A DNA stretch of 21,491 nucleotides, from the IMG/VR virus record IMGVR_UViG_3300008517_000045, positions 1 to 21,491 of that record; one strand, 5' to 3'. Under the pieces are notes generated by a model. The model made no database searches. It saw nothing but the letters and a program-made list of their open reading frames with translations, and was not told the origin of the DNA. Shown piece by piece: positions 692 to 21,491 of this stretch (its first letter is position 1; the number at the start of each line of letters is the position of its first letter). Source of the stretch: a virus. The position numbers and the translations under genes are program-made.

Positions 692-970
692 ATGAAAATA
701 TTGGATAAAATTGATGAGCTTTTTGAAGCATCAAGAACTTCAAGATTTAAAGATATGAAGGCACTCAAATCTGCTTTAGATGAGTTGGATGAATTACGTG
801 ATGCTTTGAAAATGGAAATAGATGCTAGGAGTACATTTACTGATATAGAACGTCTTACTTTTCTTGAACATTATACGGTCAGAGCTATGAGAAATGTAAA
901 AGCTTTAGAACCTAAGTTAAAAGCTTTTCAAAGTTCATTAAAAGCAAAAATAGATTTTGTTAAGGGGTAA
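692..970 (+). CDS. Small helical protein with capsid-targeting-like leader (candidate internal head protein)
   Basis: A 92-residue protein. The ATG overlaps the TAA that closes the continued frame of the 132 gene (TAATG), with a GGGGGG site 8 bases upstream. The leader MKILDKIDELFE followed by AS matches leaders of neighbouring genes and ends in L-F-E before Ala. T4 prohead protease cuts after [LI]-x-E, and T4 internal proteins carry similar short amphipathic N-terminal targeting peptides. The rest (residues 20-92) is rich in Leu, Lys, Glu and Asp with heptad-like spacing and is probably a helical bundle or coiled coil. No enzyme motif is visible. The packaged-protein role is inferred from the leader and the operon. 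Confidence 0.85.
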   Translation: MKILDKIDELFEASRTSRFKDMKALKSALDELDELRDALKMEIDARSTFTDIERLTFLEHYTVRAMRNVKALEPKLKAFQSSLKAKIDFVKG

Positions 971-972
971 TA

Positions 973-1566
973 ATGGATTTAGTAAAGAAAATAGATAGTT
1001 TGATAGGTGAAGCTTCTTGGGATGATTCTTGGGAAACTCCTATGAAAAATCTTGGTAAAAATTGGTGGAGTGATGATGGAGTTTCATCTAGAGTTGTGGA
1101 TAGGAATACTCAAGTAGAAGTTATTTGGAAACCGGGTCAAAAACATGTAAAAGTTCAATTTAGGAATATGAAAAATAGAGAATATATAGGTCATGCTATG
1201 GTTCCCACAAGTGGTATGAAGTCAAAGGAATTTTTGAAACATGTTGATAAGGATATGAAAAATATTTGGAAATCAAAGAAAAGAGGAATGAAAGAGGGGA
1301 GGATTAGTCCTTATTTTAATTTTGGTTTGCCAAAAGTTAAAGGTTGGGAACTTGAAGCTGATAATTATGAAATGGATTATTCAAAAGAACTTCCTGATGG
1401 TAGGATACTTCATTTGGTTTTGAATGATATGGATTTTCCTACAGATGGAAGTGCTATTGTTACTTATCCTGAAGGTTCTAAAAGAACAATGCAAACTTCT
1501 TGGGAAGTTAAATCCGAAAAAGATATTCCTAACGTACTAAAGAGAATTGAGAAATGGGGGAAATAA
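973..1566 (+). CDS. Unknown protein with capsid-targeting-like leader (candidate internal head protein)
   Basis: A 197-residue protein starting 2 nt after the previous stop, with AAGGGG as the SD site. Residues 1-13 (MDLVKKIDSLIGE) are the same leader type as at 692 and 2950, ending I-G-E before Ala14. The mature part looks like mixed alpha/beta with many Trp, Lys and Asp residues: strands around residues 45-75 (VEVIWKPG, VKVQF), a helix around 85-105, and a second strand set around 130-180. I recognise no family. It may be made of two related beta-rich halves, which a structure prediction would settle. Position and leader suggest a virion-internal protein. Confidence 0.85.
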   Translation: MDLVKKIDSLIGEASWDDSWETPMKNLGKNWWSDDGVSSRVVDRNTQVEVIWKPGQKHVKVQFRNMKNREYIGHAMVPTSGMKSKEFLKHVDKDMKNIWKSKKRGMKEGRISPYFNFGLPKVKGWELEADNYEMDYSKELPDGRILHLVLNDMDFPTDGSAIVTYPEGSKRTMQTSWEVKSEKDIPNVLKRIEKWGK

Positions 1567-1567
1567 T

Positions 1568-1927
1568 ATGCCAAGTACATTAAATGAATTTTTAGAAAAA
1601 GCATTAAATGAGACAATGAATGAGAAAGATGATTATGGAAACATAAAATCAACGGCAGATTATCTAGTTAAAAAAAGCATAAAAATGTTTGATAGTAAAA
1701 AAGCAGATTCAGTTTATTTATTTCTAGATGATTTGATACTCAAAAAAAAGGGGATTTCACAATTTATAGGAGAATTAGAAAGCTTTTCTAAAGGAAAAAA
1801 GGTTGAATTTGGGAAACAAAGCAGTCTAGGAGCATATATAGGTGCTTTAAAAGATATGGAAAAGGCAGGTATGAAATTTATATCTGCATGGGATAAAGCT
1901 ATGGATCAAGTAGGGTGGTCAAAATAA
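1568..1927 (+). CDS. Small unknown protein, possible internal head protein
   Basis: A 119-residue protein. The start is placed at ATG 1568, one base after the previous stop, because a GGGGGAAA site lies just upstream; an in-frame start at 1547 would lie inside the previous gene. The N-terminus (MPSTLNEFLEKALNE) is amphipathic and contains two L-N-E sites but lacks the K-I-D core of its neighbours. The rest is Lys- and Ser-rich and mostly helical, with no known motif. Its TAA overlaps the next ATG (TAATG), so translation of the two is probably coupled. Confidence 0.8.
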   Translation: MPSTLNEFLEKALNETMNEKDDYGNIKSTADYLVKKSIKMFDSKKADSVYLFLDDLILKKKGISQFIGELESFSKGKKVEFGKQSSLGAYIGALKDMEKAGMKFISAWDKAMDQVGWSK

Positions 1928-2289
1928 TGGATATCTTAGATAAATTAAATTTGATGGTTGATACTACAGTTGTGGGGAATGTAGCTACTAATACTGCTAA
2001 AGGGCATATAGATATTATTGGTGGTGAATGTCCTAAAGGTTATGTCTATGATAAAGTCAAGAAAGTTTGTGTTTCTTCTAAGAATGAATCTTCTGTATCC
2101 GGTATGGTTGCAGGTTCGGGACAGACAAGAATATGGGGAGTTAAGAGAGATTTAATGCCTGATTTGAATAGAAAAGAACCTGTAGAAATAGAAATGGATG
2201 ATCCTACAGATAAAAATATTATAGGAAGAAAAGCATTGAGATTCAATAAGCTAACGGGTGCTTATACTCCTTCTTTATGGAGAGAATAA
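1927..2289 (+). CDS. Unknown virion-type protein with ECPxG...KKxCV motif
   Basis: A 120-residue protein. The ATG at 1927 overlaps the preceding TAA, with an AGGGTGG site. It begins MDILDKLNLMVD, like the neighbouring leaders, but lacks the acidic [LI]-x-E end. Residues about 36-51 hold ECPKGYVYDKVKKVCV, a two-Cys motif also present, interrupted by TGA, at the end of the first gene (132). The C-terminal half (RDLMPDLN through TPSLWRE) is polar with no known domain. The two cysteines could bridge or bind metal, but that is a guess. The stop is again a TAATG overlap with the next gene. Confidence 0.82.
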   Translation: MDILDKLNLMVDTTVVGNVATNTAKGHIDIIGGECPKGYVYDKVKKVCVSSKNESSVSGMVAGSGQTRIWGVKRDLMPDLNRKEPVEIEMDDPTDKNIIGRKALRFNKLTGAYTPSLWRE

Positions 2290-2948
2290 TGGATAAAGTA
2301 GATAAATATCTGAATGAAGAAAAGACTAGTATGGATATCTTGGACAAGATAGAAATTGAAACTCTTATTCGTGAGACCAAAGAATTTCTTGATGATGATG
2401 AGCTAAATGAAAAAGCAATTGAAGCAGCAGGTTGGGGAAAATCTTCAGTTGAAAAATTTGGTGAAACTATAGGTCATAGTCCAAATAAACATGGATTTTT
2501 TGATGCATGTGTAAGTAGGATGAAAGGCAAATCTGGTTGGGATAAAGAGAAAGCTAATGGATTTTGTGCAAGGCTTATTGATACTGCAAAAGGGACTACG
2601 AAATGGAGAAATGAAGAAAATTACTTGGGTGAAGCAAAATCACATAAAGCAATTGAAAATAGAGTTAAAAAATTAAATGCCTATATAGATAGAGCTAACA
2701 AAGATGATGTGTTAGCTATTGAACCTGATTCTACATGGGAAGAACCATATGAATTTAAACCAATTCAAATAAAAGGCAACTTCATTTATTTTGAATGGAC
2801 TGAACCATATAAAAAGAATAAAAAAAATAAAGAGAGATTTAATTTAAATAATGAAGACCATGAAGATGATATAAAGTATCAATTGAATTGGGTATTAAAG
2901 GCATTGAAAAAAGGGTATAAAGAAGACGGTAAAACATTTGGGAAATAA
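2289..2948 (+). CDS. Putative internal head polyprotein with tandem leaders and several protease-like sites
   Basis: A 219-residue protein. The ATG at 2289 overlaps the preceding TAA. Three candidate [LI]-x-E sites are visible: L8-N-E10 at the end of the first leader (MDKVDKYLNE), I27-R-E29 after a second leader-like stretch beginning at Met15 (MDILDKIEIE), and L113-G-E115 before Ala116 in the middle. Residues about 65-108 contain a Cys/Trp module (FFDACVSRMKG, then FCARLIDTAKG, then TTKWR) that I associate with small phage proteins of unknown role. Residues 116-219 are a separate Lys-rich alpha/beta unit. If the prohead protease acts on these sites, the product would be split into two mature proteins. 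An alternative start at 2331 (Met15) cannot be excluded. Confidence 0.82.
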   Translation: MDKVDKYLNEEKTSMDILDKIEIETLIRETKEFLDDDELNEKAIEAAGWGKSSVEKFGETIGHSPNKHGFFDACVSRMKGKSGWDKEKANGFCARLIDTAKGTTKWRNEENYLGEAKSHKAIENRVKKLNAYIDRANKDDVLAIEPDSTWEEPYEFKPIQIKGNFIYFEWTEPYKKNKKNKERFNLNNEDHEDDIKYQLNWVLKALKKGYKEDGKTFGK

Positions 2949-2949
2949 A

Positions 2950-3246
2950 ATGTCAATTTTAGAAAATATAGACAAATATTTAGGTGAAGCTACTTTTACA
3001 AAGTTAAGACTAAAAAGGGATTATCCGGGTAGTTACTCTGCTGTTATAGGACGAATACGTGTTAGTGTATATCAAGCTGAAAGCAAACAATATTGGTCTT
3101 CAACAGTAGAGATAGGTACATATGGTGATGATGATTATAGTGAGGAAATAATACAGGGTTCGACAAAAGCAGAAGTTGTGAAATATATAGAAAAACACAT
3201 AAAAAATAATTTAGATGTAATCAATCGAAAACCTAAGAGATATTAA
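2950..3246 (+). CDS. Small beta-rich protein with capsid-targeting-like leader
   Basis: A 98-residue protein. The start is set at ATG 2950, one base after the previous stop; the in-frame start at 2938 would lie inside the previous gene. Residues 1-13 (MSILENIDKYLGE) are the clearest member of the leader family, ending L-G-E before Ala14. The mature region alternates strand-like segments (SAVIGRIRVSVYQAE, WSSTVEIGTYG) and ends with a helix (residues about 70-90), so a small alpha/beta domain is likely. No family is recognised. Internal head protein is inferred only from the leader and the operon. Confidence 0.85.
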   Translation: MSILENIDKYLGEATFTKLRLKRDYPGSYSAVIGRIRVSVYQAESKQYWSSTVEIGTYGDDDYSEEIIQGSTKAEVVKYIEKHIKNNLDVINRKPKRY

Positions 3247-3777
3247 ATGAAAAAAAGAAAAGGAAGACTAAATTTATTGGAAGCTCTTTTGTTTTTGGAA
3301 GCTACTGTTAGTAGAGGATATCCTGATGATGGTACGGGTATAGCAGGTGATGATGATCGTCCACCTGGAAATATCGTATATGGAGAGAAGTATAAAAAAG
3401 TTCCTTTTTTCAATAAATTAACAGACTATCAAAAAAGGTGGGGTGTTGATTTAAGTGATTGGTCATGGGATGAGTTTGAACATTCAGGGGGAATGGAAGA
3501 TTTTGATAACTACAGTAATACTTTGGATAGCATGAGAGATTTATTTCCAAAGGAGACATGGAATAGAGTTTGGAATAGAATGAAAAATGTTCCAGATGCT
3601 TTGGTTACGAAAAGATTTAAGCAAGCAGGACAACCTTGGAGAAAAGGTGGTGAAGATCAACTAGGTGTAGATAAAGAGACTCATGTGGATGTGGATGTAG
3701 ATAAGGGGGGTTCTTTCAAAGATGCTGATGTAAAGGATGAGTCTTTGTTAGCTAAAATTGACAATATTATATTGTAA
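3247..3777 (+). CDS. Unknown acidic protein with LLEA leader, last of the leader-bearing run
   Basis: A 176-residue protein starting directly after the previous TAA (3244-3246). The N-terminus is basic then hydrophobic (MKKRKGRLNLLEALLFLEA) with L-L-E before Ala13 and a second E-A step at residues 18-19, so it may be cleaved like its neighbours. After that it has an Asp/Gly/Pro-rich stretch (residues 22-40), a Trp-rich core (WGVDLSDWSWDEF, ETWNRVWNRMKN) and an acidic C-terminus. The last residues, SLLAKIDNIIL, resemble the leader core LDKIDxLL but sit at the wrong end. No enzymatic motif is seen. Confidence 0.82.
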   Translation: MKKRKGRLNLLEALLFLEATVSRGYPDDGTGIAGDDDRPPGNIVYGEKYKKVPFFNKLTDYQKRWGVDLSDWSWDEFEHSGGMEDFDNYSNTLDSMRDLFPKETWNRVWNRMKNVPDALVTKRFKQAGQPWRKGGEDQLGVDKETHVDVDVDKGGSFKDADVKDESLLAKIDNIIL

Positions 3778-16094: not shown

Positions 16095-16172
16095 GGGAGT
16101 ATAGCCGAATTTGGTATAGGCATTGGTTTTAGGAACCAAAATTTGTAGGTTCGATTCCTACTACTCCCACCA
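16095..16172 (+). tRNA. tRNA with Leu anticodon UAG, short variable loop
   Basis: Acceptor GGGAGTA/TACTCCC (7 bp), discriminator A, encoded CCA (16170-16172). D-stem GCC/GGC with a 12-nt loop containing GG. Anticodon stem TTGGT/ACCAA, loop TTTAGGA, anticodon TAG (16130-16132), which reads Leu CUA/CUN. T-arm GTAGG TTCGATT CCTAC. The variable loop is only 5 nt (AATTT), unlike normal class II Leu tRNAs, so the amino-acid identity is inferred from the anticodon and Leu-like D-arm. It starts directly after the stop codon of the uracil-DNA glycosylase gene. It is 65/78 identical to the third tRNA. Confidence 0.85.
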
Positions 16173-16177
16173 AAAAA

Positions 16178-16363
16178 ATGAAAAAGCAGAAAAGGGAAAA
16201 AATTAGACAAAGAACTGTTTATAAATGTCCGATATGTAAAGGGCCAGTTGTATTAGAATTATTAAATCTACATATGATGTTTGTTTGTTGTAAGTCATGT
16301 AATGCAGTTTATGATTATTATGATCCATTGGATGAGAGAGATATTTATAATTATGATATATGA
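16178..16363 (+). CDS. Small zinc ribbon protein
   Basis: A 61-residue protein lying between two tRNA genes. It has a basic start (MKKQKREKIRQR), then KCPICKGP and VCCKSCNAVYDYYD: two CxxC knuckles about 20 residues apart, the classic zinc ribbon. Such proteins often bind nucleic acid, but the partner is unknown. ATG 16178 lies only 5 nt after the CCA end of the first tRNA and has no SD, so tRNA processing would leave a nearly leaderless message. Its TGA abuts the next tRNA. Cys spacing argues that the frame is real despite its size. Confidence 0.75.
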   Translation: MKKQKREKIRQRTVYKCPICKGPVVLELLNLHMMFVCCKSCNAVYDYYDPLDERDIYNYDI

Positions 16364-16452
16364 GCTAGCGTGGTGGAACTTTGGTATACACGTAAGACTT
16401 AAAATCTTATGCTTGAAATGGATTGAGGGTTCGAATCCCTCCGCTAGCACCA
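16364..16452 (+). tRNA. tRNA-Leu (UAA), class II
   Basis: Acceptor GCTAGCG/CGCTAGC (7 bp), discriminator A, CCA encoded (16450-16452). Anticodon stem TAAGA/TCTTA, loop CTTAAAA, anticodon TAA (16400-16402), reading Leu UUA. The long variable arm (about 15-17 nt) and GG in the D-loop are as expected for Leu. T-arm GAGGG TTCGAAT CCCTC. The 5' end follows the TGA of the zinc ribbon gene with no gap. Confidence 0.93.
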
Positions 16453-16456
16453 TCAT

Positions 16457-16534
16457 GGGAATGTAGCCGAATTTGGTATAGGCATTGGATTCAAAATCCA
16501 AAATTTGAAGGTTCGACTCCTTTCATTCCCACCA
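16457..16534 (+). tRNA. tRNA with Leu anticodon CAA, short variable loop
   Basis: Acceptor GGGAATG/CATTCCC, discriminator A, encoded CCA. Anticodon stem TTGGA/TCCAA, loop TTCAAAA, anticodon CAA (16492-16494), reading Leu UUG. T-arm GAAGG TTCGACT CCTTT with one G-U pair. D-arm and the 5-nt variable loop (AATTT) are identical to the first tRNA, so the two are duplicates that have diverged in anticodon. The polymerase SD and start follow 9-19 bp later. Confidence 0.87.
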
Positions 16535-20561: not shown

Positions 20562-21107
20562 TTAGTAGATTTTTATTCTTGGTTTGTATATCCCAAGATT
20601 GCTGAATTCCCCCGGTTTTAATGCTCTGTCTTGTTTTTTTAATATACCGGACTCTTGTAATACCCATTGAGCAAATTCTGAACAGAAGCTATGTTTTTCA
20701 ACGTCTACACTAACTTTTCTATACATTTGCCTTAATAGTGATAGATAGTCATATCTTAATTCATCTGTTCTTCCTTCAGCTAAGAGACAAATACATGCTA
20801 CTTCATCCCTATATTCACTGAATTCATCTTTTAGGGAGTACCAATATGCTGTTCCTTTGTAGTTTTTTAATCTGGTTGATAGTAGATTCAGTTCAATTCC
20901 TGCATTAAGAGCTTCCATAATGAATCTTCTATCTCTAATATTTTTAAATTCATCGACACACCATAAAAGGGCAGTATGATTAACATCCTTTTTTGTGAAA
21001 AGGCGAATCATTTTTCCTATCATTGAAAAAGTAGAAAACTCTATAAGGTCTCCATTGTCCATCAAATGACGATATATCAAATATTGATCTAAATTTATTT
21101 TGTCCAT
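20562..21107 (-). CDS. Permuted NlpC/P60-type (YiiX-like) cysteine hydrolase
   Basis: A 181-residue protein. It opens with a short N-terminus then GDLIEFSTFSMIGKMIRLFT, followed by VNHTALLW (His44), FIMEALNAGIEL (Glu65), YDYLSLL (119-125), SFCSEFAQWVL (Cys142) and LKPGEFSNLG. This order (GDLI, then His, then Glu, then YD, then CSE) is that of circularly permuted papain-like NlpC/P60 hydrolases such as YiiX/YycO. They act on peptide or lipid amides; in a phage the target could be peptidoglycan. No signal peptide is visible, so export would need the holin-like protein downstream (11 bp). Its start overlaps the upstream gene by 13 bp. Confidence 0.8.
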   Translation of the reverse strand: MDKINLDQYLIYRHLMDNGDLIEFSTFSMIGKMIRLFTKKDVNHTALLWCVDEFKNIRDRRFIMEALNAGIELNLLSTRLKNYKGTAYWYSLKDEFSEYRDEVACICLLAEGRTDELRYDYLSLLRQMYRKVSVDVEKHSFCSEFAQWVLQESGILKKQDRALKPGEFSNLGIYKPRIKIY

Positions 21108-21415
21108 ATATCTAGCCTTTTGACTTCTTGTACAAGATCATCAATGGATGATAATACCAGTATTGTATCATCCTGTTCAATTATTTCATTTTGTGGAAGC
21201 TGTACCATTACATTACCCAATAAAAGGATTTGTGCTCCTACCATTTTATTTATTTTGGTGAATTGTTCCAAAGCAATGCTTTGGAGTGTACCAAATGTTA
21301 TTCCTGCTTTAACACGGTCTCTTACATAATTTGCCCATGCTTCAAATTCTTCGAATGTATATCCTTCCAATACTAAGCCTTCTTGGGAGACTACTTCTAA
21401 TCCTCTATGTAGTAC
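21095..21415 (-). CDS. C-terminal part of an unknown phage protein (5' end lost at contig end)
   Basis: 106 residues remain, ending at TAA 21095-21097. The true start lies beyond the genomic edge at 21415. Any start read in 21416-21430 is adapter sequence and would add the artefact residues YKRQ. The visible part is alpha/beta: a helix (FEEFEAWANYVRDRVKAG), a Leu-rich helix and a C-terminal strand/helix (TILVLSSIDDLVQEV). No motif is recognised. It is the first gene in this window of the minus-strand cluster. Confidence 0.75.
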   Translation of the reverse strand, partial: VLHRGLEVVSQEGLVLEGYTFEEFEAWANYVRDRVKAGITFGTLQSIALEQFTKINKMVGAQILLLGNVMVQLPQNEIIEQDDTILVLSSIDDLVQEVKRLDIWTK

Positions 21416-21491
21416 CTGTCTCTTATACACATCTCCGAGCCCACGAGACTAGGCATGATCTCGTATGCCGTCTTCTGCTTGAAAAAAAAAA
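21416..21491. other. Nextera/Illumina adapter read-through (not genomic)
   Basis: The Tn5 mosaic end (21416-21434), Nextera read 2 tail CCGAGCCCACGAGAC (21435-21449), an 8-base index TAGGCATG (21450-21457), the P7 sequence (21458-21481) and a run of 10 A (21482-21491) follow one another exactly as in a library molecule read into its adapter. Nothing after 21415 should be annotated. Confidence 0.98.

Follow-up and report, generated by a model that had tools for sequence, protein, structure and literature searches.

Why do unrelated proteins encoded side by side in an uncultivated virus begin with similar short peptides? The question is raised by positions 1 to 21,491 of the IMG/VR virus record IMGVR_UViG_3300008517_000045 (this whole stretch of 21,491 nucleotides is hereafter called the window), where an operon of seven genes at positions 692-3777 encodes proteins with N-terminal leaders of 10-18 residues. 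The leaders are very probably T4-type capsid-targeting propeptides that are cut by the gp21 protease, to judge by their sequence pattern, and that are attached to an expanded set of internal head proteins. Each leader would act as a short amphipathic helix taking the precursor into the prohead core; a gp21-family prohead protease would then remove it after [LI]-x-E, and the mature protein would be left in the head together with the DNA. The internal head proteins would form an expanded and recombining set of roughly 10-30 per genome, most of them unrelated to each other.

The operon and its leaders

The seven genes, named here by their first nucleotide (692, 973, 1568, 1927, 2289, 2950 and 3247), abut with gaps of -1 to +2 nt. 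An earlier note on this DNA had listed leaders in five of them, and the sequence bears out both genes and leaders, the leaders of 692, 973, 2289, 2950 and 3247 all ending in [LI]-x-E. It had also described the mature proteins as unrelated, and phmmer searches at E values up to 10 found no similarity among the mature parts of all seven. Six consecutive genes (692 to 2950) scored at p <= 0.0034 with leader profiles, while no other gene in the window scored below 0.016. The short-leader and long-leader profiles were both trained on related phages, leaving out the window and its nearest relative G007 (DNA about 89-94% identical), and the p-values are relative to internal protein stretches. The features are listed below, with a slash at each predicted cut.

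692..727, + strand: leader MKILDKIDELFE, cut LFE/A, of gene 692-970 with an 80-residue cargo; profile p=0.0016
973..1011, + strand: leader MDLVKKIDSLIGE, cut IGE/A, of gene 973-1566; profile p=0.0001
1568..1612, + strand: leader-like start MPSTLNEFLE/KALNE/T of gene 1568-1927, missing from the earlier list; profile p=0.0034
1927..1962, + strand: Asp-ended leader MDILDKLNLMVD of gene 1927-2289; profile p=0.0001
2289..2318, + strand: leader MDKVDKYLNE, cut LNE/E, of gene 2289-2948; top score in the window with the short-leader profile, p <= 0.0001
2331..2375, + strand: second, internal leader-like helix MDILDKIEIETLIRE/T within gene 2289, from the sequence
2619..2633, + strand: internal NYLGE/A site within gene 2289, from the sequence
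2950..2988, + strand: leader MSILENIDKYLGE, cut LGE/A, of gene 2950-3246; profile p <= 0.0001
3247..3300, + strand: divergent leader MKKRKGRLNLLEALLFLE, probable cut FLE/A, of gene 3247-3777, from an alignment of 7 homologues
3739..3774, + strand: C-terminal leader-like tail ESLLAKIDNIIL of gene 3247, kept in homologues

Pfam and PHROGs searches of the operon cargo returned nothing significant. Genes 3247 and 2289 had no match among 50,697 phage records, and in a scan of viral contigs gene 973 had no tblastn-confirmed locus and gene 2950 was matched only by the near-identical G007, so that both were essentially orphans in that scan. The cargo of gene 973 is related to that of G002_167, whose leader is MDITEKIDGVINE/T.

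Two leaders are read differently here than before. The leader of gene 1927 had been called degenerate; it does score as a leader, but its terminal Asp recurs in all five members of the family that were compared (LMVD, LIVD, MISD, ILQD and FLTD), and this alignment makes it a conserved variant rather than a degenerate one. The Asp-ended leader may be a tag that stays on, because T4 IPIII with Asp at residue 10 keeps its targeting but is blocked in processing (PMC9026906). For gene 3247, which starts MKKRKGRLNLLE... as first read, the [LI]-x-E motif is present, but a cut at that place is less probable. A cut six residues further on, ...LLFLE/ATVSRGYPDDG, is more likely, because homologues keep E/A, E/T or E/S at that position and two of them carry a standard leader before it (...FDKYLSE/STW..SYPDDGSG and MNNKLITKYLIE/ATVTNSYPD).

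Leaders across the related phages

The window, a fragment 21 kb long, comes from an uncultivated phage, which we assign to the T4 superfamily because it encodes, outside the operon, a DnaB-type (gp41-like) helicase, a UvsW-like helicase and a family B DNA polymerase (polB, assigned by homology). No phage in the searched collection matches its polB at more than 29% identity, and several of its long genes have no database match. Related phages were sampled as 51 contigs retrieved by polB similarity together with the larger records behind them, in which genes were called. The short-leader profile was passed by 143 of 1587 N-termini in these contigs, compared with 3.2 expected from internal protein stretches, and the long-leader profile added further matches. 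A search of related phages, as the earlier note had proposed, found the same leader on many unrelated proteins: 188 in total, including the window, G007 and the long form, falling into about 102 sequence families of which 68 are singletons. Each genome of the clade carries roughly 10-30 leader-bearing proteins. By these profile matches the leader is genome-wide in the relatives and the operon represents one cargo locus among several; the set of operon leaders first described was sound but incomplete, with gene 1568 and this wider distribution missing from it. Four cultured control phages (T4, S-SSM7, HTVC008M and Mel-JY01) gave 11 passing N-termini out of 1014, about 1%, versus 5-36% per clade contig, and S-SSM7, HTVC008M and Mel-JY01, the cultured relatives nearest in polB, showed no leader enrichment.

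Clade leaders are 9-18 residues long and come in two forms, M[KR][LF]xx[YF][LI]xE and a longer M-x-[IL]-x-x-[KR]-[IL]-D-x-x-[LI]-x-E. When N-termini were picked by M[KR][LF]xx[YF] alone, leaving the cut site out of the selection, [LI]xE followed at the next residue in 65 of 84, against a background of 1.4% and 0-3 at other offsets; the 84 include homologues and are not independent, and a nominal p-value is not to be taken literally. Across all clade N-termini, [LI]xE peaks at residues 9, 10, 11 and 13, and T4, S-SSM7, HTVC008M and Mel-JY01 have no comparable peak. The leaders have the character of an amphipathic helix, with a hydrophobic moment of 0.53 versus 0.33 in shuffled leaders and 0.29 in internal stretches. 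Counted back from the cut, the conserved columns are P7 [LFI], P4 [YF], P3 [LI] and P1 Glu, together with Lys or Arg at P8; P1 Glu is kept in 87% and P3 [LI] in 92%, and P2 and P1' are variable. Mutagenesis of T4 IPIII, whose leader targets the protein to the prohead core, has shown that residues 4 and 7 matter for targeting and residues 8 and 10 for processing (PMC9026906). These four residues are P7, P4, P3 and P1, the columns conserved in the clade, and the targeting and protease signal proposed in the earlier note is supported at the level of sequence by this match.

Comparison of the window with G007 separates leader from cargo. The products of gene 692 and G007_22 are identical at 78 of 81 cargo positions and at only 7 of 12 in the leader (MSVTDKIDRIFE in G007_22), and those of gene 2950 and G007_25 at 78 of 85 and 6 of 13, respectively, with MSILENIDKYLGE/ATFTKLRL in the window corresponding to MDLVDKYLNE/ATFTKLRL in G007 (full form MDLVDKYLNE/ATFTKLRLKRDYPG). 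The exchange points coincide with the cut site or shortly precede it, and in 2950 the leader changes upstream of it. Genes 973 and 1568 are missing from G007, with the junction inside the leader, such that the start of G007_23 matches the 973 leader and its remainder is the 1927 cargo. Among homologues of 3247, some share the divergent leader seen in the window and others have a standard one.

Fused forms occur as well. Gene 2289 has two leader-like elements beyond its N-terminal leader; G002_165 has an additional domain between the first leader and a helix matching the internal one, and G007 lacks the stretch from near the NYLGE/A site to the 2950 leader. This site is likely, from its sequence setting, to be a joint between two cargo modules. 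G003_158 consists of a 3247-type cargo, a leader-like helix that matches the 3247 tail (MNLLDRIDNLLID) and a second cargo domain, which is related to the cargo of G009_25, where it stands alone behind its own leader. These alignments show leader and cargo being recombined, with the junctions at the leader or close to it.

Recombination at this point would also be expected if the similar N-termini were DNA repeats that drive recombination, or products of recent duplication followed by fast divergence downstream, with no function at the protein level, and the join in G007_23 does mark the leader DNA as a recombination point. Yet the leaders vary in DNA and in length while keeping the four positions and a high hydrophobic moment, and the same pattern appears in distant phages with other leader wording, which leaves this explanation barely credible.

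The distant phages are Agrobacterium phage Atu_ph07 and Salicola phage SCTP-2, both of which share one cargo family with the clade, where it has 11 members. Atu_ph07 has an array of this family behind M[KR]Wxx[LI]xE leaders (gp53-gp63, numbered by the order of the GenBank record, in which the helicase-primase is gp70 as in the paper); the motif occurs as 12 leaders in the genome and at no internal position. The array lies inside coding sequences (CDS) 31-76, a region from which 29 virion proteins have been identified by mass spectrometry (PMC6102473); this location is the nearest thing to physical support for packaging, and it is indirect. The phage also encodes an S77 protease. SCTP-2 has a similar array with MK[IV]NxxLxE leaders near the terminase gene (gp213-gp219). 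Both arrays consist of genes annotated as hypothetical that lie in tandem and, as in the clade, have a shared short leader ending in [LI]xE; they differ from the clade in leader dialect, in their genomes of 440-490 kb and in having cultured hosts.

Head assembly and the proposed fate of the cargo

A gp21-like protease, which the earlier note had suggested looking for, is encoded by the relatives (PF03420, E 2.4e-31) and keeps the conserved ELxHPP and SSRGLG blocks of T4. The 120 kb contig G003 carries gp20, a gp67-like protein, gp21, gp22 and gp23 alongside about 25 leader genes; homologues of gp20, gp22 and the gp67-like protein were found across the clade, and PF07068 was matched in G003 (E 4.3e-76) and in other contigs with E values as low as 9e-97. 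Sites for the protease in the capsid protein had likewise been suggested as a check, and a conserved [LI]xE is found near the N-terminus of clade gp23 and also of gp21. The gp21 site reads LITE/, and gp23 starts with a leader-like helix ending VLxE/G and has FLME/T or YLME/Q further on, which is possibly, by its position, the counterpart of the cut in T4. The 132 kb contig G001 has a homologue of the window operon and no gp20-gp23 genes, but its end shares 126 bp with the end of G013, which carries gp20-gp23 and comes from the same metagenome (tetranucleotide r=0.986). Identities of polB and of gp20/gp23 are correlated across six contig pairings (r=0.95). Two other end matches were discarded: a 76-bp match between the window and the gp21-bearing G015 is Nextera adapter plus index, and a match between G002 and G014 is a low-complexity Ser-rich repeat.

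The gp21 proteins of L171-L173 (G016), L174 (G015) and L167 (G014) have dissimilar C-terminal extensions behind leader-like helices (KTIDSMIPE/A, DTLDGIGE/A and ETIDVMFE/G, the last with M-x-E), whereas gp21 of G013 terminates at the matching point (...STIDELFGE). It is possible, given this arrangement, that the extensions are cargo released by self-cutting.

Could the leader be a helical address tag for another destination or partner, such as the tail, the portal, a replication compartment or a host factor, with [LI]xE as part of a docking helix? The cleavage side of the propeptide reading does rest on sequence, and some leaders lack the P1 Glu (Asp in the 1927 family; MSRIDKYLNN, MSLIDKYLNP and ...DGYLSI). 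We nevertheless consider such an address very unlikely: P1 and P3 are kept while P2 and P1' vary, as in a cut site, leaders are exchanged at or just upstream of that site, and gp23 and gp21 of the clade have [LI]xE near their own N-termini. Entry of the leader proteins into the prohead and their cleavage there are, on these sequence patterns, the steps that we would predict with the greatest confidence.

Enzymes are found among the cargo of the relatives: a tRNA nucleotidyltransferase (PF01743, 1e-34) that bears the leader in four genomes, a P-loop protein resembling zeta toxin or polynucleotide kinase, and a 5'-deoxyribonucleotidase, with further weak matches to the DHH and HAD phosphatase families. 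The 11-member family shared with Atu_ph07 and SCTP-2 gave a good structure model (predicted local distance difference test, pLDDT, 81.5) with no significant match in the PDB, and its significant fold matches were only to other phage proteins. An identity as ADP-ribosyltransferase, considered from an LYRG motif, is not claimed, the only match being below threshold with a template-modelling score of about 0.2. The model of the 3247 family was poor (pLDDT 44).

Several cargo proteins of the window are small, with a net charge of +4 to +6, and T4 IPIII also affects head assembly (PMC9026906); both would fit mature proteins that are packaged and cut but stay in the head as core or DNA-condensing parts. 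That role is unlikely for the set as a whole, since a spread over about 102 unrelated families, of which 68 are represented by a single protein, points to an arms race and not to a structural role, the cargo includes enzymes, and T4 Ip1-Ip3, which have only the leader in common, are injected and act in the host, each blocking particular GmrSD enzymes (PMC12373910). By analogy with Ip1-Ip3 and from the enzyme cargo, we infer injection and action in the host: ejection of the cargo with the DNA is likely, and there is an even chance that most of the cargo serves host takeover or counter-defence.

Several points weigh against the reading of the leaders as gp21-cut propeptides of internal head proteins. 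Packaging and cutting in this clade are strongly inferred from sequence. The window, as a 21 kb fragment, holds no gp21 gene, and its connection with the gp21-bearing G015 comes from the library index and source metagenome that both have in common; it is not a genomic overlap. Leaders of the 1927 family end in Asp, and the 3247 leader scores poorly by itself (p=0.21). The main text on Atu_ph07 is silent on which of CDS 31-76 were detected, and the array could be among the undetected ones. Function is known for few cargo families, with a failed model for 3247 and no significant PDB match for the shared family.

A broader proposal, which we give an even chance, is that this clade, and in parallel other giant phages of the T4 superfamily, run a general system of protein delivery. 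Any gene could gain the removable head tag by recombination, and each virion would bring some 10-30 different proteins from an arsenal that turns over fast. Variants of the system would be Asp tags that stay on, several cargo proteins fused in one chain and separated by cleavage at the tags between them, and cargo attached to the C-terminal end of the protease; RNA-handling enzymes would be delivered at infection. Because the leader is legible in the sequence, more than 100 phage gene families that lack annotation can be listed as probable effectors carried in the virion, and leader switching, in which the same cargo receives a new tag, shows how effectors spread. The reading predicts enzymes, such as the CCA-adding tRNA enzyme, that act at the first moments of infection, and the leaders provide new tags, possibly independent of one another, with which proteins could be loaded into phage heads.

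Next to the operon, gene 132 (132-692) stops at a TGA (624-626) within CPEGQKF-TGA-PVKKKCVPVG. The frame beyond the TGA stays protein-like and is conserved in five phages (window, G007, G008, G002 and G003), with 0-1 second-position and up to 7 third-position changes in 10 codons. CC follows the TGA in every case, a small hairpin lies about 20 nt downstream, and the TGA is a candidate for programmed UGA readthrough or recoding on this codon pattern. The 1927 family has Asp in place of the TGA in the same motif, and a CPEGQKF-TGA-type motif is located in a different gene in G003. Homologues of gene 132-626 have a conserved K[KR]S[KR]Fxx[IM]LE near the C-terminus, a possible equivalent of the leader at that end of the protein.

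Elsewhere in the window, three tRNA-Leu genes (anticodons UAG, UAA and CAA; 16095-16534) adjoin polB, and a Leu-tRNA cluster is likewise present in G001, G002, G007 and G008. Two relatives have tRNA genes with a CUA anticodon (L064:3421-3496 and L071:3166-3239; 'Pyl' in ARAGORN), possible amber suppressors. The last 76 bases of the window (21416-21491) are Illumina Nextera adapter with index, common to the window and G015 because both contigs come from one library, and the open reading frame 21095-21430 begins within it (MYKRQ...). The polB relatives L225 and L226 (49-50%) are binned in a metagenome-assembled genome of a Thermoplasmata archaeon, which may be a hint of the host or a binning error; no host is claimed.

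Comparison with T4 and phiKZ-type phages

The injected internal proteins of T4 are a textbook case of counter-defence proteins carried in a virus head, but no more than a handful of families are known. At least 10 internal proteins have been reported across T-even phages (PMC12373910), and a review has suggested that T4-like phages can use the leader to load a variety of proteins (PMC9026906). The principle was therefore already known; the scale, the new leader forms, the enzyme cargo and the fused forms were not found described in the literature searched.

The clade resembles T4 in the short N-terminal amphipathic leader ending in [LI]xE, as in IPI, IPII, IPIII and Alt (e.g., MKTYQEFIAE/A), in the same four key positions on unrelated mature proteins encoded at clustered variable loci, and in the gp20/gp21/gp22/gp23 machinery encoded by relatives of the window. 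It differs in the wording M[KR][LF]xx[YF][LI]xE and the additional longer form, in having roughly 10-30 cargo proteins per genome as compared to a few in T4, and in its enzyme cargo (tRNA nucleotidyltransferase), Asp-ended variant and fused multi-cargo proteins. The ejection proteins of phiKZ/SPN3US-type giant phages are likewise head proteins whose N-terminal propeptides are removed by a prohead protease, and the internal protein load is large there too (PMC5694885). However, the propeptides of SPN3US are mostly longer than 100 residues, compared with 9-18 residues for the clade leaders, and gp21 and gp23 of the clade belong to the T4 family, unlike those giant phages.

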